Assembly: GCA_035454885.1 (NCBI GenBank)
Contig: DATIGE010000013.1
Span: 1 to 56,602, forward strand
DNA: 56,602 bases
DNA from: a bacterium
Lineage (GTDB): Bacteria > UBA10199 > JACPAL01 > GCA-016699445
Reading direction: 5' to 3'
The position numbers were made by a program, and so were the translations under genes. Every line of letters begins with the position of its first letter. Position 1 is the stretch's first letter. The notes beneath the pieces are model-generated. The model had not been told where the DNA came from. It did no database searches and saw only the letters and a list, made by a program, of their open reading frames with translations. Below are positions 1 to 22,382 of this stretch, one piece after another.

Positions 1-705
1 GATGCCGCGGATGGCGAAGCCCAGCTCGTAGACGTTGATGGCCGGCGCCGACTTGCTCATGATCCCCAGCACCACGTCCGTGATGAAGATGGAGATGAGG
101 ATGGGCGCGGTCAGCTGGATCGCCGTCACGAGGACGCTCCCCGTATCGTGGATGAACTGGTCGGTCATCGCCAGCATGTCGATCCGGTGCTTGGGGAGCT
201 CGAAGAGCGGGAGGACGTCGTAGCTCTCGAGCAGCGTCTTGAAAAAATAGAGATGCCCGCCGATCGTCAGGAAGATCACGATGCCGAACTGGAAATTCAA
301 GGTGCCGAAGAGGGTCGTCTGCTCGCCCAATTGCGGGATCAAGAGGCGGGCCTGCGCGGCTCCGCGCTGATTGTCGATGACGCCGCCGGCCGCCTCGAAG
401 GCGTGAAAGACGATGCCGGACGCGATGCCGATGGCGATGCCGTAAAAGGCCTCCTTGAAGTAGAGAAGAAAAAGGGCCATCGGCGCCTTGGGAATGATCG
501 ATGCGTCCGCCGGGGCCAGGTAGGGGAAGAGAAAGACCGTCATGACGAGCGAGAACCCGAGCCTAATCATGCCGGGCACGGGCTTTCCGACCAGGAACGG
601 GATGATCGCCGTGATCATGACGAAGCGGAGCATGATGAGCGTCCCCACGTTGAAGACGTACGTCCAGTCCGCGTTGATTCCTAGAACCCTGAGAGCATCA
701 TTCAT
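1..705 (-). CDS. sctT: SctT, T3SS export-apparatus membrane protein (3'-truncated by window edge)
   Basis: Inner-membrane export-gate subunit of the FliR/SctT (YscT/HrcT/SpaR) family; with SctR and SctS it forms the core of the secretion pore. Its 235 visible residues begin MNDALRVLGINADW and contain several long hydrophobic segments, a membrane stretch ending GKPVPGMIRLGF and a later IQLTAPILISIFITD segment, all in the order expected for this family. Full-length members have about 260 residues, so only the last 25-30 are missing beyond position 1. The ATG (703-705) overlaps the sctS stop as ATGA, which fixes the start and implies translational coupling. sctU would be expected next, outside the window. 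Confident at family level; the sct rather than fli naming rests on the neighbouring sctJ, sctD and sctI. Confidence 0.92.
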   Translation of the reverse strand, partial: MNDALRVLGINADWTYVFNVGTLIMLRFVMITAIIPFLVGKPVPGMIRLGFSLVMTVFLFPYLAPADASIIPKAPMALFLLYFKEAFYGIAIGIASGIVFHAFEAAGGVIDNQRGAAQARLLIPQLGEQTTLFGTLNFQFGIVIFLTIGGHLYFFKTLLESYDVLPLFELPKHRIDMLAMTDQFIHDTGSVLVTAIQLTAPILISIFITDVVLGIMSKSAPAINVYELGFAIRGI

Positions 706-971
706 TTGACGTAAATGTAGAACGTGTCGAGCAGAGACGTCGCGAAGTTCATGAGTTGGACGAAGATCCACGGACCCACGACGGCCAAGGTCACCATGAT
801 GCCGATGAGTTTCGGCACGAAGGTGAGCGTCTGCTCCTGCACCTGCGTCGTCGCCTGCATGATGCCGACGGTGAGGCCCAGGAGCATCGCCGTGAGGACC
901 GGCGGGGCGGTCAGGATCAGCGTCAGGTAAAGGGCCTGCTTGGTGATGGAGATGAGATACGCGGGATCCAT
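702..971 (-). CDS. sctS: SctS, T3SS export-apparatus small membrane protein
   Basis: FliQ/SctS family, 89 residues, the usual length. It begins MDPAYLISITKQAL and has two hydrophobic helices (about residues 17-38 and 52-72) joined by the conserved polar turn TTQVQEQTLTFVPKL. In the assembled pore, four SctS copies wrap around the SctR-SctT core at the inner membrane. The start lies 4 bases after the sctR stop, and the stop overlaps the sctT start by 4 bases, so the gene is in the middle of a tightly coupled R-S-T unit. Nothing unusual is seen in the protein itself. Confidence 0.95.
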   Translation of the reverse strand: MDPAYLISITKQALYLTLILTAPPVLTAMLLGLTVGIMQATTQVQEQTLTFVPKLIGIMVTLAVVGPWIFVQLMNFATSLLDTFYIYVK

Positions 972-975
972 GAGC

Positions 976-1776
976 TTATGTATACCCCAAAATCAGCCCC
1001 TTCGCTATCAAGTGCCATCCGTCCACCAGCACGAACAACAGCAGTTTGAACGGCAGCGCCACGGTGATCGGCGAGATCTGGAACATGCCGAGCGAGAGGA
1101 GGACGTTCGTCACGACGAGGTCGATGACCAGGAACGGCAGGAAGATAATGAACCCGATCTGAAAGGCCTCGGTCAGCTCCGAGATGACGAAGGCCGGAAT
1201 CAGCGTCTCGAAGGAATCTTCCGACACCTGTTCGCGGTCCTCCGCCTTGCGCATTTTTTTCGCGAGCGTCGTGAACAGCTCCTTTTCCTTGGCGTGGGCG
1301 TTCTTGGCCAGGAAGACCCGCATGGGCTCCTTGGCCTCCTTCACCGCCTGCACAAGGAGGTTGACCGTCACCTCCGAAAGCACCGGCTGGTTGGAGCCCT
1401 GGTTGATGGTCGCCCCGGCCGTCCGGTAGATCTCCAGGCCCGTCGGGACCATGATGTAGACCGTCAGGATCATCGCCAGCCCCGTGATGATCGTATTGGG
1501 CGGAATCTGCTGCGTGCCCATGGCGTTGCGGATGAGCGAGAGCACGACGGCGATCTTCACGAACGACGTCGTCATCATGATGACGAACGGCAGGAGCGAG
1601 AGCGCCCCGAGGATGGAGATGAGCAGGAGGGGCCTGGAAATCGCCTGCTGCGCGGCCGTGCCCCCGGCGAGTCCCGGAATCTCCATGGCCTGGCCGAAGG
1701 CCTTTTGCGAGACCAGAAGGGGGATCAGGAGCAGCAGAAAAAAAAGCTTCTTGGGGATCCTGCGGACGAGTTTCAA
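976..1776 (-). CDS. sctR: SctR, T3SS export-apparatus protein with FliP-like N-terminal extension
   Basis: FliP/SctR family, 266 residues. Family signatures include PFVIMMTTSFVKIAVVLSL followed by RNAMGTQQIPPN, and a C-terminal hydrophobic pair including LPFLVIDLVVTNVLLSLGMF. Five SctR copies build the export pore with SctS and SctT. Injectisome SctR proteins are usually near 215-220 residues. This one has about 50 extra N-terminal residues that start with a basic, strongly hydrophobic leader (MKLVRRIPKKLFFLLLLIPL) resembling the cleavable signal of flagellar FliP. Its start overlaps the stop of the FliO-like gene by 4 bases (ATGA). FliO is the assembly factor for FliP in flagella, so the pairing of an extended SctR with a FliO-like neighbour is functionally consistent. 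Confidence 0.93.
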   Translation of the reverse strand: MKLVRRIPKKLFFLLLLIPLLVSQKAFGQAMEIPGLAGGTAAQQAISRPLLLISILGALSLLPFVIMMTTSFVKIAVVLSLIRNAMGTQQIPPNTIITGLAMILTVYIMVPTGLEIYRTAGATINQGSNQPVLSEVTVNLLVQAVKEAKEPMRVFLAKNAHAKEKELFTTLAKKMRKAEDREQVSEDSFETLIPAFVISELTEAFQIGFIIFLPFLVIDLVVTNVLLSLGMFQISPITVALPFKLLLFVLVDGWHLIAKGLILGYT

Positions 1777-2075
1777 GATTTTCCTCCCGAGGCGATCTTT
1801 TCACCCTCCAACGGGGAAAGTTCGGTGATGAGTTGCAGACTGTGCTCGCTTGCCCCCAACACGAAATAGCGTTCGAGAATTTTGACCAGATACAGGCTCT
1901 TGTGCGGATCGAGCCGGACGGCGTCCTCGATCGAGGCCCAGGACGCGCCCCCCCGCCGGCCGAATTTGGTGCGGGGCAGGACGAAGCGGAAGAGAAAGAG
2001 CGCCAATCCCAGGACCAAGACGAGTCCGATCACCATTTTGACGAAGAGCCAGGTGAAATCCGGGGTTGGGTTCAT
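1773..2075 (-). CDS. FliO-like small membrane protein of the T3SS
   Basis: 100 residues: a short periplasmic start, one transmembrane helix (about 9-30, rich in V, L and G), then a basic RFVLPRTKFGRR turn and a cytoplasmic beta-rich part with LDPHKSLYLVKILERYFVLG. This layout and the 'L.P..SLYLV.....Y.VLG' pattern match flagellar FliO (FliZ/FliO family), the chaperone that helps FliP assemble. Injectisome operons normally lack a FliO gene. It sits directly upstream of sctR with 4-base overlaps on both sides, the same position as fliO before fliP in flagellar operons. The family call rests on pattern and context rather than on a search. Confidence 0.75.
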   Translation of the reverse strand: MNPTPDFTWLFVKMVIGLVLVLGLALFLFRFVLPRTKFGRRGGASWASIEDAVRLDPHKSLYLVKILERYFVLGASEHSLQLITELSPLEGEKIASGGKS

Positions 2076-2563
2076 TTGAGTAATTTGAGGACGCGAATCC
2101 CGAGTTTGCCGTCGACCTCGACCAATTCTCCCTTCCCCACCACCTTGCCGGCGGCGACGAGATCGACGGGTTCGGCCGGCGAACGCTCCAGGTCCATCAC
2201 CTGACCGATCCGCAGGGCCAGAAGGTCCTTCACCGTGAAGCTCTTCCGCCCCATCACGATGACCAGCGGGACCGTCATGTCGGGGGCCAGATCGAGCAGC
2301 TCCTTGACCGGAGGCTCGCCCTCGGGGATCGCCTCCATCATCTCCGCGACGTCCGCCGCAACCTCGGGAACAGGTTGGGCCCCGGGGTCGGCCGCGCGCC
2401 CCTGTTTGGGAACCTGCGGCGCCTTCAGGTCGATGCGCGTGGGCTCTTCCGTCTCGTGGACCGTCTCCTCGCCCCCCTCGCCCAAATCCGGCGGCGGCGG
2501 CTCGAAGTTATCCATCGCGTCGAGCTCGGAGAGGTACGGATCCTTCTTACTCACATCATCCAT
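2072..2563 (-). CDS. sctQ: FliN-like SctQ, C-ring/sorting-platform SpoA protein
   Basis: 163 residues. The first 90 or so are acidic, proline-rich and probably disordered. The C-terminal 75 form a SpoA domain: VPLVIVMGRKSFTVKDLLAL, then DLERSPAEPVDL and GKGELVEVDGKLGIRVL, the standard FliN/SctQ-C pattern. FliN and SctQ-C homodimers form the base of the flagellar C-ring or the pods of the injectisome sorting platform. The stop overlaps the FliO-like start by 4 bases. Having this domain as a gene separate from the FliM-like partner is the flagellar arrangement, although split SctQ (for example HrcQa/HrcQb) is also known in some injectisomes. Confidence 0.9.
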   Translation of the reverse strand: MDDVSKKDPYLSELDAMDNFEPPPPDLGEGGEETVHETEEPTRIDLKAPQVPKQGRAADPGAQPVPEVAADVAEMMEAIPEGEPPVKELLDLAPDMTVPLVIVMGRKSFTVKDLLALRIGQVMDLERSPAEPVDLVAAGKVVGKGELVEVDGKLGIRVLKLLK

Positions 2564-2565
2564 AG

Positions 2566-3504
2566 TTATACCTGTTGTTCCAAATCGACGGCGGTGAGCT
2601 TCACTTGCAACCCGTCCGGCGAGGGGACGATTTCGCCTCGAAAAGACCCTCGCTCGCCGCGTCCCACGCGCACGGACACGGCGCCGGAAAGCCTCCCCTT
2701 CTGAATCCTCGCCTGCGTCCGTTCGAGAAGAATCACGTCCCCCGGTTCGAGGCGGTTGATGTCGGCCACCTTGAGCGCCGTCCGTCCGAGCTCCGTCCAG
2801 ACGTCCGTCTGCACGAACCCGAGGTTTGCGAGCCGCGCCCCGTAGTACTCCGTCTCCCGATCGCCCGTGGGCGAAGCGCCCTCCAGGGGTTCCAAGAAGG
2901 CCTTCTGCGCCATCGGCCCGGGGAGGATCAGCCGCGCGTAACCGGCGCGGTTTCCGAGGGAAAGATGGAACGAAAAATAGATGCCGTCCGGCTGGTTCTT
3001 GAAGAACGGCGCCAACTCTTCCGGCGACGACCGGAAACCCTCCATGCGGAAGTGAACGCGCGCCTGCTTCCCGCAGCGGTCGAAGATCAGGGAGAAGATC
3101 TTGAGGAAGAGAAACGACAGCACGCCTTCCTCGATCTCGGTCAGCGGCCGGATCATCGTCAGCGGCTCGCCGGCCCCTCCCAAGAGCTTGTCGATCGCCA
3201 TGTGGGCGATGAGGGGGTCGATCTCCAGCACGCCCTTGGCATCGAGCGGCGGGAGTCCGAAGAGGAGGTAGATGCCCTGGCGCGTGAGACCTTGCAGCTT
3301 TTGCGGAATGTTCACCGCGGCCATGTGGTCCCGTTGGAAGGAAAACGTCGGGCCGATCTCTCGCCCGATCAGAATCTTGAGGGCCTTGCCCAACTCGTCC
3401 GAAAACCCGATCCGGGGCAGATAGGTCTGAACGGCCTCGAGGAGCTTGGCGTCCTGGCGGGAGACCTTCGGCAATTTAGAGAAATCAAACGGGACAACGT
3501 CCAA
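2566..3504 (-). CDS. sctQ: FliM-like SctQ, C-ring/sorting-platform protein
   Basis: 312 residues. The central part resembles the FliM/CheC-like middle domain (MAIDKLLGGAGEPL, then RPLTEIEEGVLSFLFLKI) and the C-terminal 75 residues form a SpoA domain (VADINRLEPGDVILLERTQA). FliM carries a CheY-binding EIDALL-type peptide at its N-terminus; none is visible here, which suggests no chemotactic switching. Injectisome SctQ proteins usually have a shorter, diverged N-terminal half, so the recognisable LLGG and TEIE motifs make this protein unusually FliM-like. It lies 2 bases upstream of the FliN-like gene and 40 bases after sctP. Confidence 0.82.
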   Translation of the reverse strand: MDVVPFDFSKLPKVSRQDAKLLEAVQTYLPRIGFSDELGKALKILIGREIGPTFSFQRDHMAAVNIPQKLQGLTRQGIYLLFGLPPLDAKGVLEIDPLIAHMAIDKLLGGAGEPLTMIRPLTEIEEGVLSFLFLKIFSLIFDRCGKQARVHFRMEGFRSSPEELAPFFKNQPDGIYFSFHLSLGNRAGYARLILPGPMAQKAFLEPLEGASPTGDRETEYYGARLANLGFVQTDVWTELGRTALKVADINRLEPGDVILLERTQARIQKGRLSGAVSVRVGRGERGSFRGEIVPSPDGLQVKLTAVDLEQQV

Positions 3505-3544: not shown

Positions 3545-4441
3545 CTAAACCATTACCACATTTATAGACCCGACATCAATGCCTTTCTCGGTGAGGACCT
3601 TTCTCAGTTCTCCCTTTTGGGCGTTGAAGAGGTTCAGGACGTCTTCCGACTGGGCGATGAATGTGGCATCCACCTTGCCCTTGGAGACGGAGACCTTGAG
3701 CTTCAGGCCCTTGAAGGCCTCTTCGTGGAGTTGCATGTCCAGCTCCTTGTCCCCGTCCGTCTTGGTGACGATGCGGCAATACTGGACGAGCTGGTCCATG
3801 ACGCTCTTGGGGATCACGTTGGGGTCCTTGGGCGGCTTGGGCGGCGGAGTGGCCAGCGTCGTCGTCCCCACGGACTGGGCGGCCTGCAGCTCCATCTCGA
3901 AACGCCCGCGCACGTTCTGCAGGACCATCCCCTCGCCTTGCGCCCCTTGCATCTCCGGGGGCAACATCGGCGCGCCGCGGCCCTGGCGGCCGGTGCCGGA
4001 ACCGAATCCCTGTCCGCCCTGACCACCCTCGCCGCCCTCGCGTTCGCCGGTGGAACTCCGGCCGATGACGCGCCGGTCGGCCTCTTTGGCCCGGGGACCG
4101 GAGACTTCCTTCGAATCGCCGGGCTTGGCCGCGTCGTCGCGGTCGTCGTCGCGTTCGCGGGACGTCTTTTTCGAAAGGTCTTCTTTGGGGCGCCCAAAAC
4201 GTTCCTGTTGGGAGGCCACGGAACGCACGGCCTCGCGCGTTTGCGTTTCGGCCCCCTGGTTGCCGCCGGGCATGCGGTCCATGAACGAGTCGTTCTTCGT
4301 CTCTTCCATGACTTTGTCGAAGGCCGTCTTCTCGCCGGGCAGCTTGGGCGTGAGGAGACGCCCGCCCTGCGACGCGCCCTGGCGGTCGGGACGGATCGTT
4401 TCGCGTCTCACGTCGGGTTTGTTTTCCACTTTTTCAGCCAT
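3545..4441 (-). CDS. sctP: SctP/FliK-type length-control protein
   Basis: 298 residues. The first two thirds are low-complexity and charged, rich in G, R, E and Q (residues 1-190). The compact C-terminal domain includes DKELDMQLHEEAFKGLKLKV and SKGKVDATFIAQSEDVLNLF, followed by a final segment ending GIDVGSINVVMV. A disordered ruler-like N-terminus plus a C-terminal domain with the 'L.P..LG.L.v.v....g.v...f.a....v...l....L...L...G' rhythm is typical of the FliK/SctP substrate-specificity switch. The position between sctO and sctQ matches other T3SS operons. The ruler part is short, which would predict a short needle if the molecular-ruler model applies. The family call is good; exact function is inferred. 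Confidence 0.8.
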   Translation of the reverse strand: MAEKVENKPDVRRETIRPDRQGASQGGRLLTPKLPGEKTAFDKVMEETKNDSFMDRMPGGNQGAETQTREAVRSVASQQERFGRPKEDLSKKTSRERDDDRDDAAKPGDSKEVSGPRAKEADRRVIGRSSTGEREGGEGGQGGQGFGSGTGRQGRGAPMLPPEMQGAQGEGMVLQNVRGRFEMELQAAQSVGTTTLATPPPKPPKDPNVIPKSVMDQLVQYCRIVTKTDGDKELDMQLHEEAFKGLKLKVSVSKGKVDATFIAQSEDVLNLFNAQKGELRKVLTEKGIDVGSINVVMV

Positions 4442-4443
4442 AA

Positions 4444-4944
4444 TTACGCCACATTCCTTAATTGATGGATGACGTTGCCCAGCTCATCCATTTCGCGTTC
4501 CTCGATGCGCGACAGTTCCTTCTGCAGCTTCTTCCTCCACAGTTCCTTGTGCTTCTCGATGACGCGCAATTCCTTCACGGCGTCGATGTAGTCCCGGCGC
4601 GCGCGCTTGACCATGATCTCGCAGTTTTCGATGACCTGCTTCTGGTTCTCGATCTCCCGGTCCTTCTCCTTCTCGTCGTCCTCGAGCTTTCTCAAATAGT
4701 TCACCCGCACGCTGCCGTCCCGCGCGTGGGCGCGGCCCTCCAGGATCTTCTCCTGCAGCTCGCGGCGCGATTCCCTGCGCCGCTTGATGATCGCCTGTTT
4801 TTCCTCCTCCAGCTTCTTCAACTGCTTTTTCTCCTTTTCGAGCCGCGCGATCGCCTGGGCCAGCCGGATCTCCGCGTTCTTCTTCGCACGGGTCTTCAGG
4901 ACGAGCATGGGCTCGAGGCGGTACTTGAGATCCGACTTCTTCAA
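4444..4944 (-). CDS. sctO: SctO/FliJ-type T3SS central stalk
   Basis: 166 residues, almost entirely charged alpha-helical coiled coil (for example KKKQLKKLEEEKQAIIKRRR is avoided here as a quotation beyond 20 residues; key stretches are RLEKEKKQLKKLEEEKQ and KDREIENQKQVIENCE). Size, composition and position immediately after the ATPase gene, with a 4-base overlap, identify it as the FliJ/SctO stalk that inserts into the ATPase hexamer and contacts SctV. Sequence conservation in this family is very low, so the assignment depends mainly on length, coiled-coil content and gene order. Confidence 0.85.
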   Translation of the reverse strand: MKKSDLKYRLEPMLVLKTRAKKNAEIRLAQAIARLEKEKKQLKKLEEEKQAIIKRRRESRRELQEKILEGRAHARDGSVRVNYLRKLEDDEKEKDREIENQKQVIENCEIMVKRARRDYIDAVKELRVIEKHKELWRKKLQKELSRIEEREMDELGNVIHQLRNVA

Positions 4945-6260
4945 GCGAAGATCCCCTTCAGCTGCGAGATCGTCTCGTCAAAGTTCACCTTATCCTGCAC
5001 GCCCTGCTTCAAAAACGAGTTCACTTCCTCGATCTTCTCGATGGCGTAATCGACGCGGGGGTCGCTGCCCGACTCGTAGGCGCCGATCAAGATCAGGTCG
5101 CGTTCCTTTTCGTAGGCGGCCACGACCTCCCTGAGTTTCCTCGCCGCCTCCACGTGCTCGGGATCGACGATCGAAGTCATCACGCGGCTGATGCTTTCGG
5201 ACACGTCGATGGCCGGATAGTGGCCGCGCGCCGCCAAATCCCGGGACAGGACGATGTGGCCGTCCAAGATGGACCGGACTTCGTCCGCGATCGGCTCGTT
5301 CATGTCGTCGCCGGCGACAAGCACCGTGTAAAAGGCGGTGATCGATCCCTTGTCGGAATTGCCCGTCCGCTCCAACAGCCGCGGGAGCGTCGAAAAGACC
5401 GACGGCGTGAATCCCTGCCGGGCGGGCGGCTCGCCGACGGCGAGCCCGATTTCGCGCAGCGCCCTCGCGAAGCGCGTGACCGAATCCATCATGAGCAGGA
5501 CCTTGAGCCCTTGATCACGAAAATATTCCGCGATGGCCGTCGCCGCGTAAGCCGCCTTGGCGCGGACGAGGGAAGGCTGGTCGGACGTCGCGCAGACGAT
5601 GACGGAACGCGAGAGACCCTCCTCCCCCAAATCGTGCTCCAAGAAATCCCTCACCTCGCGACCGCGCTCGCCGATCAGTCCAATCACGTTCACGTCGGCC
5701 GTGGTGTTCCGGGCGATCATGCCGATCGTCGTGCTCTTGCCGACGCCCGCGGCGGCAAACAAGCCGACGCGCTGGCCCTCGCCGCAGGTGAGGACCGAAT
5801 CGATCGCCTTCACGCCGACGGAGATGGGGCTCAAGACGCGCTGGCGCTTCAAAGGATCGGGCGGCTCGGCCTGGACGGGATAGAATTGATCGCAGAGGAG
5901 AGGGCCCTTGGTCTCCGTGTCGAGCGGTTCCCCCAGGCCGTCCAAAACGCGTCCCAGGAGTTGACGTCCCACCGGCACCTTGAGGCAATCGCCTGTGGAC
6001 GTCACCTCGCTGCCCGGCGCGATGCCTTCGAGGTTGCCCAAAGGCATCAAGAGGACCTCGTTCTCCTTGAATCCCACCACCTCGGCCTTGATCTTGCCCC
6101 GTCCGCCGGCCGCGTCGATGAGGCAAAGCTCGCCCACCTTGACGTTGGGGATGACCGCCTTGGCGACCAGGCCGACCAACTCCGTCACCCGGCCCTTGAC
6201 CTTCACGGTCGCCGCCTGGTTCAGATTTTTCTGATATTTTTCGAAATTAATGACGGCCAT
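4941..6260 (-). CDS. sctN: SctN, T3SS ATPase
   Basis: 439 residues, the normal length for FliI/SctN. It has an N-terminal beta barrel (about 18-95). The Walker A motif is AAGVGKST (residues 170-177, catalytic Lys175), IGERG (196-200) carries the catalytic glutamate, Walker B is VLLMMD (254-259), and the family segment GEPPARQGFTPSVFS follows. The hexamer at the cytoplasmic face unfolds substrates and releases chaperones. The start ATG at 6260 lies 17 bases after the sctL stop, and the stop overlaps sctO. All catalytic motifs are intact, so the system is probably functional. Confidence 0.97.
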   Translation of the reverse strand: MAVINFEKYQKNLNQAATVKVKGRVTELVGLVAKAVIPNVKVGELCLIDAAGGRGKIKAEVVGFKENEVLLMPLGNLEGIAPGSEVTSTGDCLKVPVGRQLLGRVLDGLGEPLDTETKGPLLCDQFYPVQAEPPDPLKRQRVLSPISVGVKAIDSVLTCGEGQRVGLFAAAGVGKSTTIGMIARNTTADVNVIGLIGERGREVRDFLEHDLGEEGLSRSVIVCATSDQPSLVRAKAAYAATAIAEYFRDQGLKVLLMMDSVTRFARALREIGLAVGEPPARQGFTPSVFSTLPRLLERTGNSDKGSITAFYTVLVAGDDMNEPIADEVRSILDGHIVLSRDLAARGHYPAIDVSESISRVMTSIVDPEHVEAARKLREVVAAYEKERDLILIGAYESGSDPRVDYAIEKIEEVNSFLKQGVQDKVNFDETISQLKGIFA

Positions 6261-6277: not shown

Positions 6278-6976
6278 CTAAACGGCCCCCAGCCCCAGAG
6301 CCTTCTTGATCGCCGCGAGTTGGGTCTCCAGGCGCGCGTCGACCGCGCCCATCTCGGTTTCCACGACGCAGCCGCCCGGCGGGATCTGCTCGTCCTCCTT
6401 GATCGCCACGGACTGGGTCTGGTCCAGGGCCGACGCGAGGTCTTTTTCGCGTTCCTTCAAGAGGGGCATGTCCATGGGATGGATGCGGACGACGATCTTC
6501 CGTCCCACCGCCTGGGTGATCGCCTTCTTGACGACGTCGACGATGGCCCCTTCCGCCACCTCGCGTCCGATCACCTTCTCGGCGATGTCCATCACCATCC
6601 GGATGATCTGAGGCTCGGCGTCGTTCAAGGCCTTTTCCTTGGAGAGTTCGGCCTCCATGATCTTTTGCGAGAGCTGCTCGAGACCCTCTTGCAAGCCCTG
6701 ATTGTATCCCCTTTCACGCTCGGCCTTCTTTTCGGCGACCGCCTGCTCCCGGGTTGCTCGGGCCTCTTTTCGAAGCCGGGCGGCCTCCTGACGGGCTCGG
6801 GTGACGATCTCCTTGGCCTCTTCGAACGCCGTCATCACTTTGGTTTTCAGGATGGGACCGACGTTCACGGGGCGAAATTCGGGATCAAATTGAAGGCTCT
6901 TGATGATCTTGGGAGGCGCTTTGGGCGCCGGAGCGCCTTTCGGCGGCACAACCGGCCTGGGGGGGATCGGTTTCAT
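6278..6976 (-). CDS. sctL: SctL/FliH-type stator of the T3SS ATPase
   Basis: 232 residues from the ATG at 6974-6976, which overlaps the upstream stop as ATGA; longer in-frame readings run into the preceding gene and are rejected. It has a proline-rich N-terminus (MKPIPPRPVVPPKGAP), then a long helical region with GYNQGLQEGLEQ. The FliH/SctL C-terminal domain includes VIGREV, VVRIHPMDMPLL and IPPGGCVVETEMGAVDARLE. SctL dimers link the ATPase to the FliN/SctQ pods. The C-terminal motif is well conserved and the gene order (upstream of sctN) is standard. Confidence 0.93.
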   Translation of the reverse strand: MKPIPPRPVVPPKGAPAPKAPPKIIKSLQFDPEFRPVNVGPILKTKVMTAFEEAKEIVTRARQEAARLRKEARATREQAVAEKKAERERGYNQGLQEGLEQLSQKIMEAELSKEKALNDAEPQIIRMVMDIAEKVIGREVAEGAIVDVVKKAITQAVGRKIVVRIHPMDMPLLKEREKDLASALDQTQSVAIKEDEQIPPGGCVVETEMGAVDARLETQLAAIKKALGLGAV

Positions 6977-7929
6977 TTGTCTTCCTTCCAATATTTTCGG
7001 ATGGCGCCCGTCTTGGCGAGGAAGGCCACGCGGGCGAGGATTTCCTGGCGCCGCGCCTCGACCGCCGCGAACGCGCGGCGCTTGACCGTGTCCTGCAGCA
7101 CGCGCTTCAGCCGGTAGCCCTCCTCCGGCGGAAGTTTGTGGTAGATCATGTCGGCCCAAGCCCGGTCCTCAACCTCCAGGGCGTGCGCGAAGGCCGAATA
7201 ACCGATTTCCCGGAAGATCTCTTCGACGGGAAGCCTTTCGAGCGGAAGGGAGACCAAATGGCGCTGGGCCTCTTGGTGCGCGTCCCGCGGGACGGATCCG
7301 CCGTGCTCGATCCGTTCGCGGATCTCCCGCGCCATCTTGGGAACGAAACGGGCGAGAAAGGCCCTCAGCACCTGGGGCTCGACGTCCTTGAACGCCTTGC
7401 GGATCTCCTCGATCCCCAGGTCGCGGAACAGGGCGCGGAGATCGTCGGTCTTGAGGACGGTCAGGTGCGCGAACGAAAACGCCCCACCCTGCCGCGGCAC
7501 GGTGAACGTCAGCCTCTTTTCCGCGAGCTCGCGCACGATCTCCGAAACCTGGGGGGAAACCTTGTAGGACTCGTTCACCTTGGGGAGAAGCTTCCGGCGC
7601 GATTCAGGCAGGTGTTCGATCAGGTACTTGATCTTGTCGCCGGTCAAGAACCGGCAGAGGAGGCCCAGAACCCGCGGGCTCTCGCCCTCGAGTTTTTCCA
7701 GGATCCAGCCCGGATGGATGTCCGAAAAACCGGTGCTGAGGCTGAAACCGCGGAGCTTGCGGATGCGGGCCATGAGGGCGTCGGAATCCACTTCGCCCTC
7801 CCGGACGAGGCGGTCGGCGACCTTGCCGAGCTCCCCCTCGTCGGCCTCCGAGGCGAAGGCGAAGAGGGCGCGCGCGCCTTCGCCCTCGTTCATCAGACAC
7901 AAAGCGGCCAGGAGTTCGGTGCGGTTCAT
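6973..7929 (-). CDS. FliG-like protein in the SctK position of the T3SS operon
   Basis: 318 residues. Residues about 71-135 resemble the FliG middle domain: LEKLEGESPRVLGLLCRFL, EHLPESRRKLL and VSPQVSEIVRELAEKRL match the flagellar pattern with HPQ..A..L..L...A, LP...R and .V.P......E....L. Residues 141-220 can be written under flagellar FliG-C without a gap (FSFAHLTVLKTDDLRALFRD; FLARFVPKMAREIRERIE; DAHQEAQR). The last 90 residues are an extra helical, basic extension not typical of FliG. The acidic pair that in E. coli FliG helps make torque appears as Glu-Arg here. The gene directly precedes sctL, exactly where sctK lies in Yersinia-type operons. I infer an adaptor joining the SctD/SctJ ring to the FliM/FliN-like ring. 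The homology is my own reading and needs a profile search. Confidence 0.72.
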   Translation of the reverse strand: MNRTELLAALCLMNEGEGARALFAFASEADEGELGKVADRLVREGEVDSDALMARIRKLRGFSLSTGFSDIHPGWILEKLEGESPRVLGLLCRFLTGDKIKYLIEHLPESRRKLLPKVNESYKVSPQVSEIVRELAEKRLTFTVPRQGGAFSFAHLTVLKTDDLRALFRDLGIEEIRKAFKDVEPQVLRAFLARFVPKMAREIRERIEHGGSVPRDAHQEAQRHLVSLPLERLPVEEIFREIGYSAFAHALEVEDRAWADMIYHKLPPEEGYRLKRVLQDTVKRRAFAAVEARRQEILARVAFLAKTGAIRKYWKEDK

Positions 7930-7964: not shown

Positions 7965-8444
7965 TTATTGGAAGCTCGTGTTCAAGAGCTGCTTCGTGCC
8001 GGTGTTGACCTGTTCGACGATCTTGCCGGTCAGGTCGATCGAAAGGGCGATCTGGTGCATGCCCGCCTGCATGGCCAGGAGCTCGGGCGGCGTGAACTTG
8101 CGGCCGGAGGTCGTCAGCTCCATGAGGCTGTCCATTTGGAGAGCGCCGCGGTTGACGTCGGAGAGAAGGTCCATGGTTTTTCCGTGGGTTCGAATTTCCT
8201 GATTGGCCGTGATCTCGCCGGACTTGATTTCCAGCCCCTCGGCGGAGACGGCCTGGATCTTGGTCTCGGGACCCATGCCGAAGGCGTTGACGATCTGCTT
8301 GGTCATCTCGGACTGCGACTCGAGACGGGCGGTCAAGACTTTTTGAAAGTCGGACTCCGTCCCCTTGAGGGGCGCGTTTTTCTGAACGTCCGTCAGGACC
8401 TTTTCGGCGATGGACGTTCCGATTTTTGCTGCGATATCCGCCAT
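7965..8444 (-). CDS. sctI: SctI-like inner rod / needle adapter
   Basis: 159 residues, soluble, helical. The C-terminal 45 residues (RKFTPPELLAMQAGMHQIAL, then IVEQVNTGTKQLLNTSF) carry the SctI pattern 'l.P.eLL.lQ......s..i.l.sK.v....q..k.Ll..q'. SctI forms the adapter between the export gate and the needle and is an early secreted substrate. It lies 9 bases after the sigma-factor gene and 35 bases before the FliG-like gene. SctI has no close flagellar counterpart in this form, so its presence argues for an injectisome rather than a flagellum. The N-terminal 100 residues are not recognisable. Confidence 0.78.
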   Translation of the reverse strand: MADIAAKIGTSIAEKVLTDVQKNAPLKGTESDFQKVLTARLESQSEMTKQIVNAFGMGPETKIQAVSAEGLEIKSGEITANQEIRTHGKTMDLLSDVNRGALQMDSLMELTTSGRKFTPPELLAMQAGMHQIALSIDLTGKIVEQVNTGTKQLLNTSFQ

Positions 8445-8453
8445 AAAATTCGA

Positions 8454-9224
8454 TTAACGGGCTTGCGCCACGCTCTCCTGGCCCGCGGTCTTGTCCGCGC
8501 GGACGCGGCTGTTGATCTTCTTGAACAGAATCTCGAGGGCCCGCGCGTGCAGGCGCGAGGTCCAGGACTTGGACAATCCCAAGTCGCCGCCGGCCTCTTC
8601 CAGCGTCTTGTTCTGGAAGTAGTACATCTTGATGAGCTTGCGCTCCTTGTCGGGAAGCGACTCGATCGCCTCCTTCATGTACTGCTTGATCTGCTGAAAC
8701 TCGGCCGACTGTTCGATGTCCTTATTTTTCTTGTCTTCGAGCTCCATGCCGTCCTCGGCGGCGTCCACCGAGATGACGTAGATGGAGGCGAGCGAGTTCA
8801 CCGTGTCGTACATCTCGCTCATTTCGTCTTCCGCGACCCGGGCCGTCGGTCCCGACTTTTCCGCGATGTACTGGAGGTACTCGTTGGTCGCCTGCTCGAA
8901 CTTGATCCGGGCGTACAGGGAACGCGGGATCCAGCCGGTCTTGCGGAGGCCGTCGTAGATCGCGCCCTTGATGCGGTAATAGGCGAAGGTCTTAAAATCG
9001 ACGTTCAGGGAGGCGTCGAACTTCCGGGCGGCCTCCAAGAGGCCCAAACGGGCGTTGCACATGACGTCGTCGAAATCGACCGAGGAGGACAGGGTCTGCA
9101 TGACGCGGCTCGCTATGGACGCCGCGTAGGGGAGGTATTGCTCGACCAGGGAATTACGCTTCTCGAGGTCCTTCGGAGTCATCGCCGCTGCTTCTACCTT
9201 CTTGACCGTCGCCTTGGGTCCCAT
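8454..9224 (-). CDS. FliA/WhiG-type (sigma-28 family) RNA polymerase sigma factor
   Basis: 256 residues. Region 2 is clear (VDFDDVMCNARLGLLEAARK, then FKTFAYYRIKGAIYDGLR and GWIPRSL), region 3 follows, and region 4 has SLPDKERKLIKMYYFQNKTL with the helix-turn-helix GLSKSWTSRLHARALEIL. This is the layout of group 3 sigma factors that transcribe late flagellar genes. Here it is the first gene of the sctI-to-sctT operon and no flagellar gene is in view, so it probably directs late T3SS genes or substrates. A -24/-12 promoter lies upstream at 9254-9270, suggesting a sigma-54 to sigma-28 cascade. ATG at 9224 is preceded by AGAGGA at 9 bases. No FlgM-like anti-sigma factor is recognised nearby. Confidence 0.9.
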   Translation of the reverse strand: MGPKATVKKVEAAAMTPKDLEKRNSLVEQYLPYAASIASRVMQTLSSSVDFDDVMCNARLGLLEAARKFDASLNVDFKTFAYYRIKGAIYDGLRKTGWIPRSLYARIKFEQATNEYLQYIAEKSGPTARVAEDEMSEMYDTVNSLASIYVISVDAAEDGMELEDKKNKDIEQSAEFQQIKQYMKEAIESLPDKERKLIKMYYFQNKTLEEAGGDLGLSKSWTSRLHARALEILFKKINSRVRADKTAGQESVAQAR

Positions 9225-10228: not shown

Positions 10229-11236
10229 TCATCGCATCTGTTGCTGTTCCGCCCCGACGTCGAACGTCCCGTCCATCGCGGCATTGCCCGTTCCCTCTCC
10301 CAAGAGTCCGCCTCCTCCGCCTCCGGCGGACAGGGCCCCGCGCTCAGCCCTCATGCCGCGCTGGACCCGGAGCCTCATGCGGTTCAAGCGCATGATGTTG
10401 AAGAGCAGGAACCCGGAGACACCCACCAAGAGCAGCAACAACGTAATGATATACCCTTTGAACCGCGCGACGGAAGCCCGGTCGAGTTTCAAGCCCGCGA
10501 TCTCCACGACGTCCGCGTTGGCCGTTGAAATCGGCGTCAGCTCCGAGGGCATCTCGCCGTCCTCCGGAGGCAACCCGGGATTCAGCGGCATCGGCGTGGG
10601 CTGAGGCGTCGGCGTCGAGAGCCCGATCGGCCCGGCCCCGGTGTCCGTCCGGGTCACGATGACGGCGACGTCATTCGCATCCAGGTTGGGCACGGTGTTG
10701 GCGACGAATCTCTGGACCTTTCCTTCGGTCACCGTCTGTGCCACAAGCTCGTCGTTCCGCGTCTTGACGACGACGGAGGCCGTGGGTTTGCGCTTGACCG
10801 GGTCAAGACTCGCGAATTCGCTCTCGTTGGGGACGTTCAACACCACATCGACGTCGACCACGCCCGGAATCTTGAGCAAGGAATTGATGATCTCGCCCTT
10901 GAGGGCCAGCAGGAAACGCGCCTTTTGTTCGTCCGGCGTTGGGATCAGCCCCTTTTCCCGGTAGACGCCCGAAAGCCCCAATTCGCGCTTGCGCGGGAGG
11001 TTGTTGGCACGGAGGATGCTTCGCGCGCGCGACTCCTCCTTGGCGGGAACGCTGACCATCCACGTCACTTCCTGTCCGGTCCCCTCCTCCTTTTTCTTCA
11101 TCGCTTCGATGCCGTTTTGGCTCAAGACGACCAGGATTTCGTCGGCCTCGATCTCTTGAAGACTGTGGTGGAGGGCGGTCTGGCCGCACCCGGCCGCGAA
11201 GACCGCTAGAAATAAAATGAGGAATAATCTTTTCAT
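10229..11236 (-). CDS. sctJ: SctJ, T3SS inner-membrane ring lipoprotein
   Basis: 335 residues. It has a lipoprotein signal with lipobox AAGC (Cys17). The YscJ/FliF-N ring domains follow, with the hallmark ILRANNLPRKRELGLSGVY, LKGEIINSLLKIPGVVDVDV and SVVVKTRNDE. A proline-rich linker follows, then a C-terminal transmembrane helix (about 268-292) and a basic, Gly-rich cytoplasmic tail. The lipid anchor and length separate it from flagellar FliF (about 550 residues). SctJ forms the inner ring of the basal body together with SctD. The stop of the upstream TPR gene and this ATG share one base (TGATG). The cytoplasmic tail of some 40 residues is a plausible binding site for the FliG-like protein. 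Confidence 0.95.
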   Translation of the reverse strand: MKRLFLILFLAVFAAGCGQTALHHSLQEIEADEILVVLSQNGIEAMKKKEEGTGQEVTWMVSVPAKEESRARSILRANNLPRKRELGLSGVYREKGLIPTPDEQKARFLLALKGEIINSLLKIPGVVDVDVVLNVPNESEFASLDPVKRKPTASVVVKTRNDELVAQTVTEGKVQRFVANTVPNLDANDVAVIVTRTDTGAGPIGLSTPTPQPTPMPLNPGLPPEDGEMPSELTPISTANADVVEIAGLKLDRASVARFKGYIITLLLLLVGVSGFLLFNIMRLNRMRLRVQRGMRAERGALSAGGGGGGLLGEGTGNAAMDGTFDVGAEQQQMR

Positions 11237-12739: not shown

Positions 12740-14848
12740 TTATTGGCGCTTGAGCTTGGCCACCACCGGCCGAAACTCGCTGACACCTAAGTTTAGCTTA
12801 ATTTCCTCGTCTTGGTAGCCTTCTTTTCGAAAGAGGATCTTGTACGACCCCACGCCCAGGTCGTGTAGGATGAGCGGAGTCTTCTGCTCCACCTCCGAGG
12901 CGTTCACGAACACCCGCGCCCCCGATGGCTCCGAGGTGATGTACAGGACGCTCTTGAGCGGCGAGAGCCTTTGGAACAGGGCGCCTCCGTCCGTCCGCAC
13001 CTTGGCGTCATCCGCGGAGACCAGCACCTCCACGAGGAGTTGCAGGGCCTTCATCCGGTCGCCCTGCTCGAAGATGACCGTCGCGATCCCCAGCCGGCCC
13101 GCGTACTTGTAGGCGTCGTTCTGCATGGCCTTCAGAAAATAGTCCTGGGCCTCTTTGTAGGACTTTTGCTTCAGGTAGCAGAGGCCCACCATGTAGGAGA
13201 TCTGCGCCGTCTCCAGATCGGACGGATTTTTCGAAAATGCGTCGACCAAGACGGGCAGGGCCTCGGCGTAGCGCGACTCCTTCATCAGGGCGTCGGCCTT
13301 GTTGATGAGTTCGCCCGAAGCCGAGGTCTTGAGAGGCACCTCGGCCGTGTAGGGCATGTTGATCTCCATCTTGACGACCTGGACGAAATCGAAATACCCG
13401 TCATGCTTCAGCGTCAGCAGGTGTTCGCCCACCGGGAAGGTCCCGTTGAACGGCGTCACGCCCACTTCCTTTTCGTCAATGAAGACCTTCGCGTTCGGCG
13501 GCACGGAGGTGAGTTGGACGGGGAAGGACGTGAGGTCGTCGTCCTTCACGTCCACCGTGTAAGTCGTCTGAGCGGCGCCCAGGTTGAATTCGCGGCGGTA
13601 GACGACTTCGTCCAGATACGTCTGCGAAAGCCCCAGCTGGCGGTTCTTGCGCAATTCCAGAATGTAGCGGCCGAAGGGCACGTAGATGGGCTTTCCGAAG
13701 ACGATTTCCGCGAATTTGATGGGCTTCGCCCGGTACGGGTCTTTTTCAAAATAACCTTCCAGATAGAGCTGGGCGTCCCGGGGAAGATTCGCCACCTTGA
13801 AGATGCCGATCTTCCCGGCAAAGTTGATGGGCATGACGGTCGCGCCTTGAGGGGGGCTGAATTGCTGCCTCTCCTCCACCACTTCTCCGACCTCGGGGAG
13901 CTGGAAGACGGCCCGGGCTTCGTACCACTTGCCGTACTTGAGATTGGTCGACGTGCGGAGCGGCGTCACGCCGATGGGCTCCTCGCCGAAAAAGACGCGC
14001 GCCGGAATCGGCGTGGAGGAGACGTCCAAGAAAACCGGCTGCATCTCGGGCACGGCGACGGGCAACGATTCAGCGGGGAGGACTCCGCCGATCTGCCCGG
14101 CCGGGCCCTCCTCCCTTTTTCCCGGCGTTTTTCCCGAAATCTCCGTTTTGGCGACGCCTCCGTCCTGGCCCTTCACCTTTTTCAGAATCTTGGGGAGCCC
14201 GTAGGCGAGGGCGGCCACGAGGACGACCGCGAGGACGCCGAATAAAAACAATTTTCTCTTTTTTCCGGGCGCTCCCGGGGCGACGGCGACGACCTGGCCG
14301 CTCTTCAACAACTCCGACGGGACTCCCGCCTCTTCCTCCACCGCGGGCAGGTTGTCCGGGGCGCGGTGCATCTCGGCCGGGATCGGCTCGGACCTCGGCT
14401 GTTCTTGAGGGGCATCCTGGGGTATGTGAGGCGAAGACACCTCATGCGCCGACGCCGGCTCGGGCTCGGGTGCGACGTCGACCTCCTCCTCCGCCGGCCC
14501 GGTCAGAAACCGCAGGAGGAAGACGCCGACCTTGATCCTGGTCTTGTGCGCCAGCGAGACGGCTTGGCTGATCTTTTGCCCGCCCACCTTGGTCCCGTTG
14601 CGGCTTCCCAGGTCGGCGACGGTCGCTCCGTTTTCCGCCACCTCGATCACGGCATGACGGCGCGAGACGCTGGAGTCGTCCAAGACAATGTCGTTTTCCC
14701 GCGAGCGGCCGATGGTATTGTTGCCCTTTTGGAGACGGTAGCGCCCCCGTCCCCGGGGCCCGCTCAAGACCTCCAGGCAGGGATAACCCCCCTCCTCGTC
14801 GGCCATCTTCCGAATTTCCGTATTTTCGCGATCGTCAGGGGGAGGCAT
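12740..14848 (-). CDS. sctD: SctD-type ring protein: FHA domain, TM helix, periplasmic PEGA and TPR domains
   Basis: 702 residues. An N-terminal FHA domain (about 28-112) has intact phosphothreonine-binding motifs: GRS at 47-49, SRRH at 62-65 and NG at 84-85. An acidic linker and one transmembrane helix (about 199-217) follow. The periplasmic part holds a PEGA-like segment near 270, a clear PEGA repeat near 465-515 (VPPNAKVFIDEKEVGVTPF), TPR-like helices near 535-625 (SYKEAQDYFLKAMQND) and a final PEGA repeat (EPSGARVFVNASEVEQKTP). Ordinary SctD has a cytoplasmic FHA fold, one helix and ring-building domains in about 400 residues, so topology matches but the periplasmic half is unusual. It heads the D-E-F-G-J block. 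Start uncertain: a second ATG lies 14 codons on. Confidence 0.8.
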   Translation of the reverse strand: MPPPDDRENTEIRKMADEEGGYPCLEVLSGPRGRGRYRLQKGNNTIGRSRENDIVLDDSSVSRRHAVIEVAENGATVADLGSRNGTKVGGQKISQAVSLAHKTRIKVGVFLLRFLTGPAEEEVDVAPEPEPASAHEVSSPHIPQDAPQEQPRSEPIPAEMHRAPDNLPAVEEEAGVPSELLKSGQVVAVAPGAPGKKRKLFLFGVLAVVLVAALAYGLPKILKKVKGQDGGVAKTEISGKTPGKREEGPAGQIGGVLPAESLPVAVPEMQPVFLDVSSTPIPARVFFGEEPIGVTPLRTSTNLKYGKWYEARAVFQLPEVGEVVEERQQFSPPQGATVMPINFAGKIGIFKVANLPRDAQLYLEGYFEKDPYRAKPIKFAEIVFGKPIYVPFGRYILELRKNRQLGLSQTYLDEVVYRREFNLGAAQTTYTVDVKDDDLTSFPVQLTSVPPNAKVFIDEKEVGVTPFNGTFPVGEHLLTLKHDGYFDFVQVVKMEINMPYTAEVPLKTSASGELINKADALMKESRYAEALPVLVDAFSKNPSDLETAQISYMVGLCYLKQKSYKEAQDYFLKAMQNDAYKYAGRLGIATVIFEQGDRMKALQLLVEVLVSADDAKVRTDGGALFQRLSPLKSVLYITSEPSGARVFVNASEVEQKTPLILHDLGVGSYKILFRKEGYQDEEIKLNLGVSEFRPVVAKLKRQ

Positions 14849-20252: not shown

Positions 20253-22382
20253 CTAGGCTGCCTGGGCCTGGCCGGGCAGCGCGATCCGCGCAATGGGCTG
20301 GATGCGGAGATTCTCCGAAAGCTCCTGGTAGGACAGGACGGCCAGCTGCGGGAATTCGAGCTCGATAATCTTCCTAAAATAGCGCCGGACCTCGGAGATG
20401 GTCAGGATGACCGGCGGCTTCGCCCCCGGCGGCAGCGGGTGGCTGGCGATTTCGCGCCCCACCGACTCGACGATCTCCTGCGTCGTCTCGGGCTCCAGAG
20501 CCAGGTAGTTCCCCTTGTCGGTCTTGCGGATCGCGGCCCGGATCATCTCCTCGATGTCCGGGTCGAGCAGGTACACCGCAAGCGTGCCGGTCTGTCCCGC
20601 GTATTTGTGCGTGACGTAGCGCTTGAGCCCCGCGCGCACGTGCTCGGTCAAGGCCACCGTGTCGCGCTCGACCTCGCCCCACTGCGCCATCGTCGCGAAG
20701 ATGTTTTTCAGGTCGCGGATGGAGATGTCCTCCTGAACCAGTCGCTGGAAGACCTCGGAGAGCTGCAGAACCGTGATCACCTTGGGCACGAGCTCCTTGA
20801 CGAGCGCCGGATGCGTCTTCTCGAGCTCGGTCAGCATCGTCTGCACCTCCTGGACGCCCAGGAACTCGTGCGAGTGTTTTCGCAGGATGAACGAAAGATG
20901 CAGGATCAGGTACTCGGAGACGTCCCACATCCGGAATCCCGCCTGGGTCGCGATGTCCTTGAACTCGGCGGAGATCCACGTGACGACGGAGTTGTCGATC
21001 GGGTGCAGGGTCTCGCGGCCCGTGATGTTGAAAAGCTGGAGCTGTTCGAGCGATTCGCCCACCAGGATGCAGCCCTTCTCGATCTTGCCGCGGGCGACGG
21101 GGATTTCGTTGATGTTGATGACGTAACTCTCCGGGTCCATGTCGATCGTCTGACCGCGCACCTGGATGCCGGGGAAATTCACGCCCAACTCGTAATAGAG
21201 CCCGTGGCGGAGCAGCGGAATCAGCTCGTTGATGAACCGCCCGCCGTCCTGGCTGTCGTCGACGTAGGGGATCATGTCCGCGCCCACTTCCAGCGAAATC
21301 GGCGACGGCATGATGAAGGGGAGCACGTCCCCGTGCTTGGCCACCGCCTTCTTGACCACTTCCTCCTTGGGCGTCTCGGAGATCTCCTGGATCTTCTTGG
21401 CCTTGCCGCGCGCGAGGAAAAACGCGAGCGACGCCAAGGCCGCCGAGAGGATGAAGAACGGCAACTTCGGCAGACCCGGAATGAGCGCGAAGGTGAGGAG
21501 CAGGATCGCCGTGATGACCAGGGCTTTCGGGTAGGCGGTCACCTGTTGGACGATGTCGCGGCCCAGGTTCGAGCCTTCCTTGGTCTCCGAGGCCACGCGG
21601 GTCACGACCACGCCGGCGGAGACGGAAATCACGAGCGCCGGGATCTGGGCGACGAGCCCGTCGCCGATCGTCATGAGGGAATAGAGTTTGGCGGAGTCGC
21701 CGAACGCCATGCCCCTCTGCAGGACCCCGATCACGAACCCCCCGACGATGTTGATGAGGCAAATGATGATGCCGGCGATGGCGTCTCCCTTGACGAATTT
21801 CATCGCGCCGTCCATCGCGCCGTAGAGCTGCGACTCGCGCTGGAGGGTGGAACGCCTCTCTTGCGCCTGCTCCATGTTGATGATGCCGGCGCGCAGGTCG
21901 GCATCGATCGACATCTGCTTGCCGGGCATGGCGTCCAGGGTGAAGCGCGCGCCGACTTCGGAAACGCGTTCGGCGCCCTTGGCGATGACGATGAAGTTGA
22001 TCAACGTGATGATGGCGAAGAGGATCCCGCCGACGACGTAGTTCCCCCCGACGACGAAGCTCCCGAACGCGTGGATGACCTCTCCCGCGTGCCCTTCGGC
22101 CAAAATGAGGCGCGTCGAGGCGATGTTGAGGGCGAGGCGGTAAAGGGTCGTGATCAGGAGGATCGTCGGAAAGGACGCGATCTTCAGGGCGTCGGAGATG
22201 TACAAGGCGACCAGGAGGATGATGACGGCGATCGCCAAGTCGACGGTCAAGAGGATGTCCAGAATCCAGGTCGGCAGCGGGACGATGATCATCCCCAGGA
22301 CGCAGAGGACCAGGGCGGCCAGGACGAGGTCGCTGTACTTGTTGATGAACTCGTTGATGCTGACGAATTTGAATTTAGGCAT
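20253..22382 (-). CDS. sctV: SctV, major T3SS export-gate protein
   Basis: 709 residues, the usual length for FlhA/SctV. The N-terminal half has about eight transmembrane helices and the FHIPEP-family signature (GARFTLDAMPGKQMSIDADL, residues 144-163). The C-terminal half (about 350-709) is the cytoplasmic domain that forms a nonameric ring and docks chaperone-substrate complexes (for example RGQTIDMDPESYVININEIP). It is 15 bases downstream of argJ and separated from the other export-apparatus genes by 17.5 kb... of T3SS-associated genes; no promoter is apparent in the 15-base gap, so transcription may come from argJ/secA or from inside argJ. Confidence 0.96.
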   Translation of the reverse strand: MPKFKFVSINEFINKYSDLVLAALVLCVLGMIIVPLPTWILDILLTVDLAIAVIILLVALYISDALKIASFPTILLITTLYRLALNIASTRLILAEGHAGEVIHAFGSFVVGGNYVVGGILFAIITLINFIVIAKGAERVSEVGARFTLDAMPGKQMSIDADLRAGIINMEQAQERRSTLQRESQLYGAMDGAMKFVKGDAIAGIIICLINIVGGFVIGVLQRGMAFGDSAKLYSLMTIGDGLVAQIPALVISVSAGVVVTRVASETKEGSNLGRDIVQQVTAYPKALVITAILLLTFALIPGLPKLPFFILSAALASLAFFLARGKAKKIQEISETPKEEVVKKAVAKHGDVLPFIMPSPISLEVGADMIPYVDDSQDGGRFINELIPLLRHGLYYELGVNFPGIQVRGQTIDMDPESYVININEIPVARGKIEKGCILVGESLEQLQLFNITGRETLHPIDNSVVTWISAEFKDIATQAGFRMWDVSEYLILHLSFILRKHSHEFLGVQEVQTMLTELEKTHPALVKELVPKVITVLQLSEVFQRLVQEDISIRDLKNIFATMAQWGEVERDTVALTEHVRAGLKRYVTHKYAGQTGTLAVYLLDPDIEEMIRAAIRKTDKGNYLALEPETTQEIVESVGREIASHPLPPGAKPPVILTISEVRRYFRKIIELEFPQLAVLSYQELSENLRIQPIARIALPGQAQAA

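Follow-up and report, generated by a model that had tools for sequence, protein, structure and literature searches.

Which protein, if any, stands in for FliG in a type III secretion system (T3SS) that does not build a flagellum? The question is raised by a T3SS operon in contig DATIGE010000013.1 (assembly GCA_035454885.1, a bacterium of the UBA10199 lineage), whose analysed stretch of 56,602 nucleotides is referred to here as the window. According to the literature, the non-flagellar T3SS (NF-T3SS) that branch earliest have no fliG gene (PMC3459982); the injectisome protein SctK has been listed as 'FliG (?)' (PMC4045390), and OrgA/SctK has been described as having no clear flagellar homologue (PMC4443714). 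An earlier note on this DNA had proposed that a FliG-like protein occupies the sctK slot of the operon at 6973-7929. These coordinates are correct; the gene runs along the minus strand, from an ATG at 7929 to a stop at 6973, encoding 318 amino acids. The presence of a FliG homologue where FliG was thought to be absent is real and confirmed by the evidence set out below.

The middle and C-terminal parts of the protein had been aligned by eye to FliG-M and FliG-C, which is borne out by both Pfam and hhalign. The Pfam family FliG_C matches residues 150-227 with 52.6 bits (E 6.4e-14, cut-off 23.3), with a second and weaker stretch at about 234-310, and FliG_M matches residues 75-140 with 18.7 bits (E 0.002), a score that, for the window protein taken by itself, does not reach the Pfam cut-off of 25 bits. 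Over 13 family members, FliG_C is found in all 13 and FliG_M in 12, and several members of the family, including distant ones, exceed both cut-offs. The flagellar FliG equivalog TIGR00207 gives the window protein 20.7 bits, against a cut-off of 226.7. When a profile of 30 family sequences was compared with one of 15 flagellar FliGs, hhalign returned a probability of 98.5% (E 2.7e-15), a match that is not due to chance because 20 column-shuffled control profiles reached a probability of 0.5% at most. A search of the PDB with a 13-sequence profile found FliG as the sole significant family (best 1lkv, 3.8e-8), and no unrelated family matched more strongly. The gap-free stretch of about 75 residues that had been noticed in the C-terminal part is also real; it extends over about 78 residues, of which 15 are identical to E. 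coli FliG. The 318-residue protein is a true FliG homologue, firmly so in its M and C domains and weakly in its N domain.

The architecture of the protein is N-M-C-C', with a shortened N domain, without the ARM_C helices and with the torque domain duplicated. Compared domain by domain with flagellar FliG, the shortened FliG_N-like domain (residues 1-66, positions 7732..7929, on the minus strand like every feature of the window given here) reaches an hhalign probability of 63.5% (E 6.8e-5), the M domain, FliG_M (residues 67-146, 7492..7731), 95.3% (E 2.3e-8) and the C domain (residues 147-230, 7240..7491), which has the FliG_C torque-domain fold without the torque charges, 96.7% (E 4.5e-10, 80 columns ungapped). 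The last domain, C' (residues 231-318, 6976..7239), reaches 41% in the same comparison. These C-terminal 88 residues, which contain the second Pfam FliG_C stretch, are a tandem copy of FliG_C since C and C' align to each other with a probability of 96.2% (E 2.1e-9), a duplication that the earlier note had not spotted. In the alignment with flagellar FliG, the ARM_C segment of about 40-50 residues between M and C is absent.

Structure prediction leads to the same family. An AlphaFold2 model built from nine family sequences is all-helical, with a mean predicted local distance difference test score (pLDDT) of 81.9, and a second one, for a relative that shares about 30% identity, has a mean pLDDT of 78.5. 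In Foldseek searches of the PDB with both models, ranks 1-13 were all FliG (best E 1.4e-4 for the relative). The M domain fits the FliM-bound FliG_M 4fq0_C with a template modelling (TM) score of 0.75 at 1.8 Å, and the C domain fits the MotAB-bound FliG_C 8ucs_H with a TM-score of 0.61 at 2.0 Å. The armadillo-type FliG fold, on which the earlier note had made its proposal depend, is thus predicted by two models.

The residues that carry torque in the flagellum have fared differently from those involved in FliM binding. The acidic pair D288-D289 of E. coli FliG falls on E205-R206 (7312..7317) in the alignment with flagellar FliG, so the Glu-Arg reading given for this protein is correct, and the loss of torque charges extends across the 30 sequences of the family. 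Both positions are acidic in 14 of the 15 flagellar FliGs; in the family, an acidic residue at the D288 position is a minority state (Glu in 5 of 30), and the D289 position is Arg in 25 of 30. The basic residue at the R297 position is lost, being mostly Ser, Pro or Asp, and K264 is kept in only 4 of 30 members; the torque charges of E. coli FliG (K264, R281, D288, D289 and R297) are not retained as a set. With regard to FliM binding, the EHPQ motif of FliG has its counterpart in ESPR (residues 83-86, 7672..7683), with E in 29 and P in 28 of the 30 sequences and Q replaced by R in 25. On the side of the FliM-like partner, the GG of the GGxG loop is kept in 19 of 22 sequences. The conservation of E-x-P and of the GG loop, together with the loss of the torque charges, fits a protein that holds FliM and no longer meets the stator. 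A further motif, HPxW (HPGW at residues 72-75, 7705..7716), is absent from flagellar FliG and diagnostic of the T3SS family, in which it is near-invariant (H and P each in 28/30, W in 30/30).

The placement of the gene just before sctL, where sctK belongs, holds as well. In the window it lies downstream of sctI and directly upstream of sctL, the FliH-like gene, which its 3' end overlaps by a few bases. Among 24 loci, whose gene order was read as far as each locus extends, the FliG-like gene follows sctI in all of them and precedes sctL wherever the sequence continues, within the order sctD-x-x-TPR-sctJ-x-sigma-sctI-fliG-like-sctL-sctN-sctO-sctP-fliM-fliN-fliO-sctR-sctS. The operon is colinear with fliF-G-H-I-J-K-(L)-M-N-O-P-Q of E. 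coli, except that two insertions, sctI and a gene for a FliA-type sigma factor, separate sctJ from the FliG-like gene; with these intervening, the latter is found between sctJ and sctL in the 24 loci. In one non-flagellar T3SS lineage, the SctK slot is therefore filled by a FliG homologue, which is a positional equivalence.

The gene is the only FliG_C gene of its own genome and has homologues in 36 of 40 related genomes; across the whole phylum, it is present in 30 of 34 good genomes. Four largely complete genomes without it have kept sctV (74-81% identity) and are also devoid of the T3SS gene sctN, so either these genomes lack the entire cluster or it was not assembled in them. A search with a narrower family alignment yielded 8 named loci, and the named relatives within this uncultured group of organisms are metagenome-assembled genomes, mostly deposited as 'Deltaproteobacteria'. 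No match to plasmids was obtained by tblastn with the FliG-like protein. Three genomes (G003, G008 and G040) carry a canonical flagellar FliG in addition to the T3SS-type FliG.

The flagellar order of the operon, together with the presence of FliO, FliM, FliN and a FliA-type sigma factor, could suggest that the cluster is a reduced flagellum and its protein a working, torque-bearing FliG. This appears very improbable. SctV and SctR score over the injectisome cut-offs and below the flagellar ones, the SctJ lipoprotein is nearer to YscJ than to FliF, and searches of the genome with matching positive controls found neither flagellar rod proteins nor a MotB plug. A flagellar relic with a working FliG is largely refuted by these observations and by the loss of the torque charges across 30 sequences; moreover, three relatives have a canonical flagellar FliG besides. 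The fact that some genomes of the phylum carry such a FliG would also be in line with a recent duplication of the host's flagellar gene into the T3SS operon, to which we give slightly less credence still. In the tree, a branch supported at 100/100 sets the 30 T3SS proteins apart from the rest, where the phylum's own FliGs (99/99 among themselves) fall with other flagellar FliGs; this branch between the T3SS family and flagellar FliG measures about 2.4 changes per site. Barring a seriously misleading alignment, the tree rejects a recent duplicate, and the split and its long branch point to an old lineage separate from flagellar FliG rather than to a recent copy. The least credible of these explanations is a protein of the MgtE_N type, or a generic HEAT-repeat protein, whose likeness to FliG is confined to the fold. 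The folds of FliG and MgtE_N are related, and weak MgtE_N matches are seen in 10 of 13 members; however, FliG_C scores 38 bits above MgtE_N for the window protein, which rules out an MgtE_N identity, the E-x-P and F-x-F motifs are kept, and the gene occupies the fliG slot.

A different matter is whether the protein is SctK proper, the SctK and T3SS FliG families being homologous and diverged beyond detection by sequence. The earlier note had gone as far as to suggest that, if the match were confirmed, SctK is a diverged or replaced FliG, a step that is unsupported as stated. Four SctK-slot families were sampled (Bradyrhizobium and relatives, NolU of Sinorhizobium and relatives, HrpB4 of Mycetohabitans/Paraburkholderia, and Paracoccus), and none of them matched the T3SS FliG family or flagellar FliG at full length (hhalign probability at most 2.6%). 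Pfam YscK and OrgA_MxiK had no match in 13 family members, and a Pfam YscK search of the phylum gave zero matches, which is weak evidence as it was made without a positive control. PscK, the SctK of P. aeruginosa, the fold of which has been reported as novel (PMC7926512), was not matched by the 13-sequence family profile in the PDB sequence search and does not figure in the 50 top-ranking folds listed for either AlphaFold model. Notwithstanding, the four SctK-slot families likewise fail to align with one another, so the test is low-powered and says little about deep ancestry. The correspondence of the slot J-K-L-N with F-G-H-I and the 'FliG (?)' listing favour homology, as does a short HPxWL motif common to HrpB4, where a 13-column stretch aligns with the M domain (hhalign E 0.0034, with 0 of 60 shuffles as good). 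The match loses its significance once about 24 comparisons are corrected for, and the motif is only a lead. Identity with SctK is thus a minority possibility in our view. With the same reserve, one might picture a lineage that keeps the ancestral adaptor, in which FliG became a static scaffold in the passage from flagellum to secretion machine and the SctKs are its much-diverged descendants, with HPxWL still visible in HrpB4. What the family says about where SctK came from is suggestive and falls short of proof.

As regards function, this FliG has probably survived as a static adaptor between the inner-membrane ring and the FliM/FliN platform, a task that falls to SctK elsewhere, and it may represent the missing FliG counterpart of a non-flagellar machine. 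Its N-terminal part would dock on the inner-membrane ring, through the SctJ tail and/or the FHA domain of SctD, and its M domain would hold the FliM-like protein by the E-x-P and GG-loop contact of the flagellar C-ring. In this way, it would hold both the FliM/FliN-like platform and the ATPase complex of SctL and SctN in place beneath the export gate, a role equivalent to the scaffold half of FliG in flagella or to SctK in injectisomes, without stators or switching. Several observations weigh against this reading. The N domain on its own aligns weakly with flagellar FliG, over 51 columns, and Pfam FliG_N has no match to the N region of the window protein. Whole-chain TM-scores are low (0.2-0.3), meaning that the domains fit and their arrangement differs. 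Furthermore, a recognisable FliF-type FliG-binding end was not found when the SctJ tails were compared, and docking along the route that FliG itself uses is therefore unproven. Near their end, these tails show loosely recurring EGxVMDE-like or GTFxxG motifs. Such motifs could be candidate docking peptides for the FliG-like N domain, although this is unproven.

The remaining genes indicate that the T3SS is non-flagellar, with SctV, SctR and SctJ of the injectisome type by their profile scores. The export gate gene sctV (20253..22382) scores 816 bits with hrcV, over its cut-off, versus 699 with FlhA, below its cut-off, and sctR (FliP, 976..1776) scores 237 bits with yscR, over the cut-off, and 201 with fliP, below it. 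The sctJ lipoprotein gene (10229..11236), whose product has a cytoplasmic tail of about 50 residues, is closest to TIGR02544 (1.7e-38) though below its cut-off. Compared with its orthologues in seven relatives, SctV shows 71-86% identity and is far more conserved than the FliG-like protein, which suggests strong selection on the T3SS. The operon further comprises sctS (FliQ, 702..971), the sctP/FliK slot (3545..4441) and the sctO/FliJ slot (4444..4944), both assigned by position and conserved synteny, the sctN/FliI ATPase gene (4941..6260), sctL/FliH (6281..6982; PF02108 3.5e-21, SctL TIGR02499 2e-19) and a weakly supported sctI inner rod gene (7965..8444; TIGR02497 0.004, and synteny). SctQ is divided, in the manner of flagella, between two proteins (2072-3504): a FliN/SctQ-C-like protein (2072..2563; TIGR02551 3.9e-21, fliN 1.2e-16) and a FliM-like protein with the GGxG loop (2566..3504; PF02154 3.2e-12). 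FliO is normally flagellar. A FliO homologue nevertheless lies inside this non-flagellar operon (1773..2075), with 53.3 bits for TIGR03500 (2.1e-14), just below the cut-off of 55.25. Between sctJ and sctI there is a FliA/WhiG-type sigma factor gene (8454-9224), conserved in relatives, which may control the T3SS. The sctD-like gene (12740..14848) encodes an FHA domain and, behind it, PEGA and TPR domains that stand where a ring-building periplasmic part is usual. GspD, beside gspE of type II secretion (G000:C47:124491-124988, L050), is the genome's only secretin, so no dedicated SctC was found and the T3SS seems to lack its own secretin.

Placed in the sctK slot of an NF-T3SS that has no secretin of its own and a nearly intact flagellar gene order, a FliG homologue turns the 'FliG (?)' of PMC4045390 into a testable hypothesis. 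It also offers a possible intermediate form in the transition from flagellum to injectisome, and a natural FliG stripped of its torque function is useful for separating the scaffold role of this protein from its motor role.

In the literature searched, which left most subscription papers outside, no stand-alone FliG was found described in an NF-T3SS operon. Among known systems, the injectisome SctK (YscK/PscK, OrgA/MxiK, HrpB4, NolU) shares with the protein the slot between sctJ and sctL and a presumed role as the link between the inner-membrane ring and the SctQ platform, whereas homology is undetectable, the SctK-slot proteins examined have 212-235 residues compared with about 320 here, and SctQ is split in the present system. 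A contact-dependent injectisome differs further in having its own secretin SctC. The Myxococcales NF-T3SS described by Abby and Rocha in 2012 (PMC3459982) likewise belongs to deltaproteobacterial-type bacteria with no dedicated secretin found, but it was reported without FliG, while the system studied here includes FliO, a homologue of FliG, and FliM and FliN as two proteins. In Chlamydia, a FliF-FliG_M fusion (Bergeron 2016, PMC4768692) provides another case of a T3SS-bearing bacterium without flagella that has a piece derived from FliG; there, this piece consists of the M domain only, fused to a FliF relic beside a complete injectisome, and does not stand alone in the sctK slot. With flagellar FliG itself (PF14842/PF14841/PF01706), the protein shares homologous M and C domains, weakly the N domain, the place in the fliF-G-H-I order and partners homologous to FliM, FliN and FliH, and it differs from flagellar FliG by its short N domain, the loss of the ARM_C segment and of the torque charges, the doubled FliG_C, the added HPxW motif and its setting in a non-flagellar T3SS.
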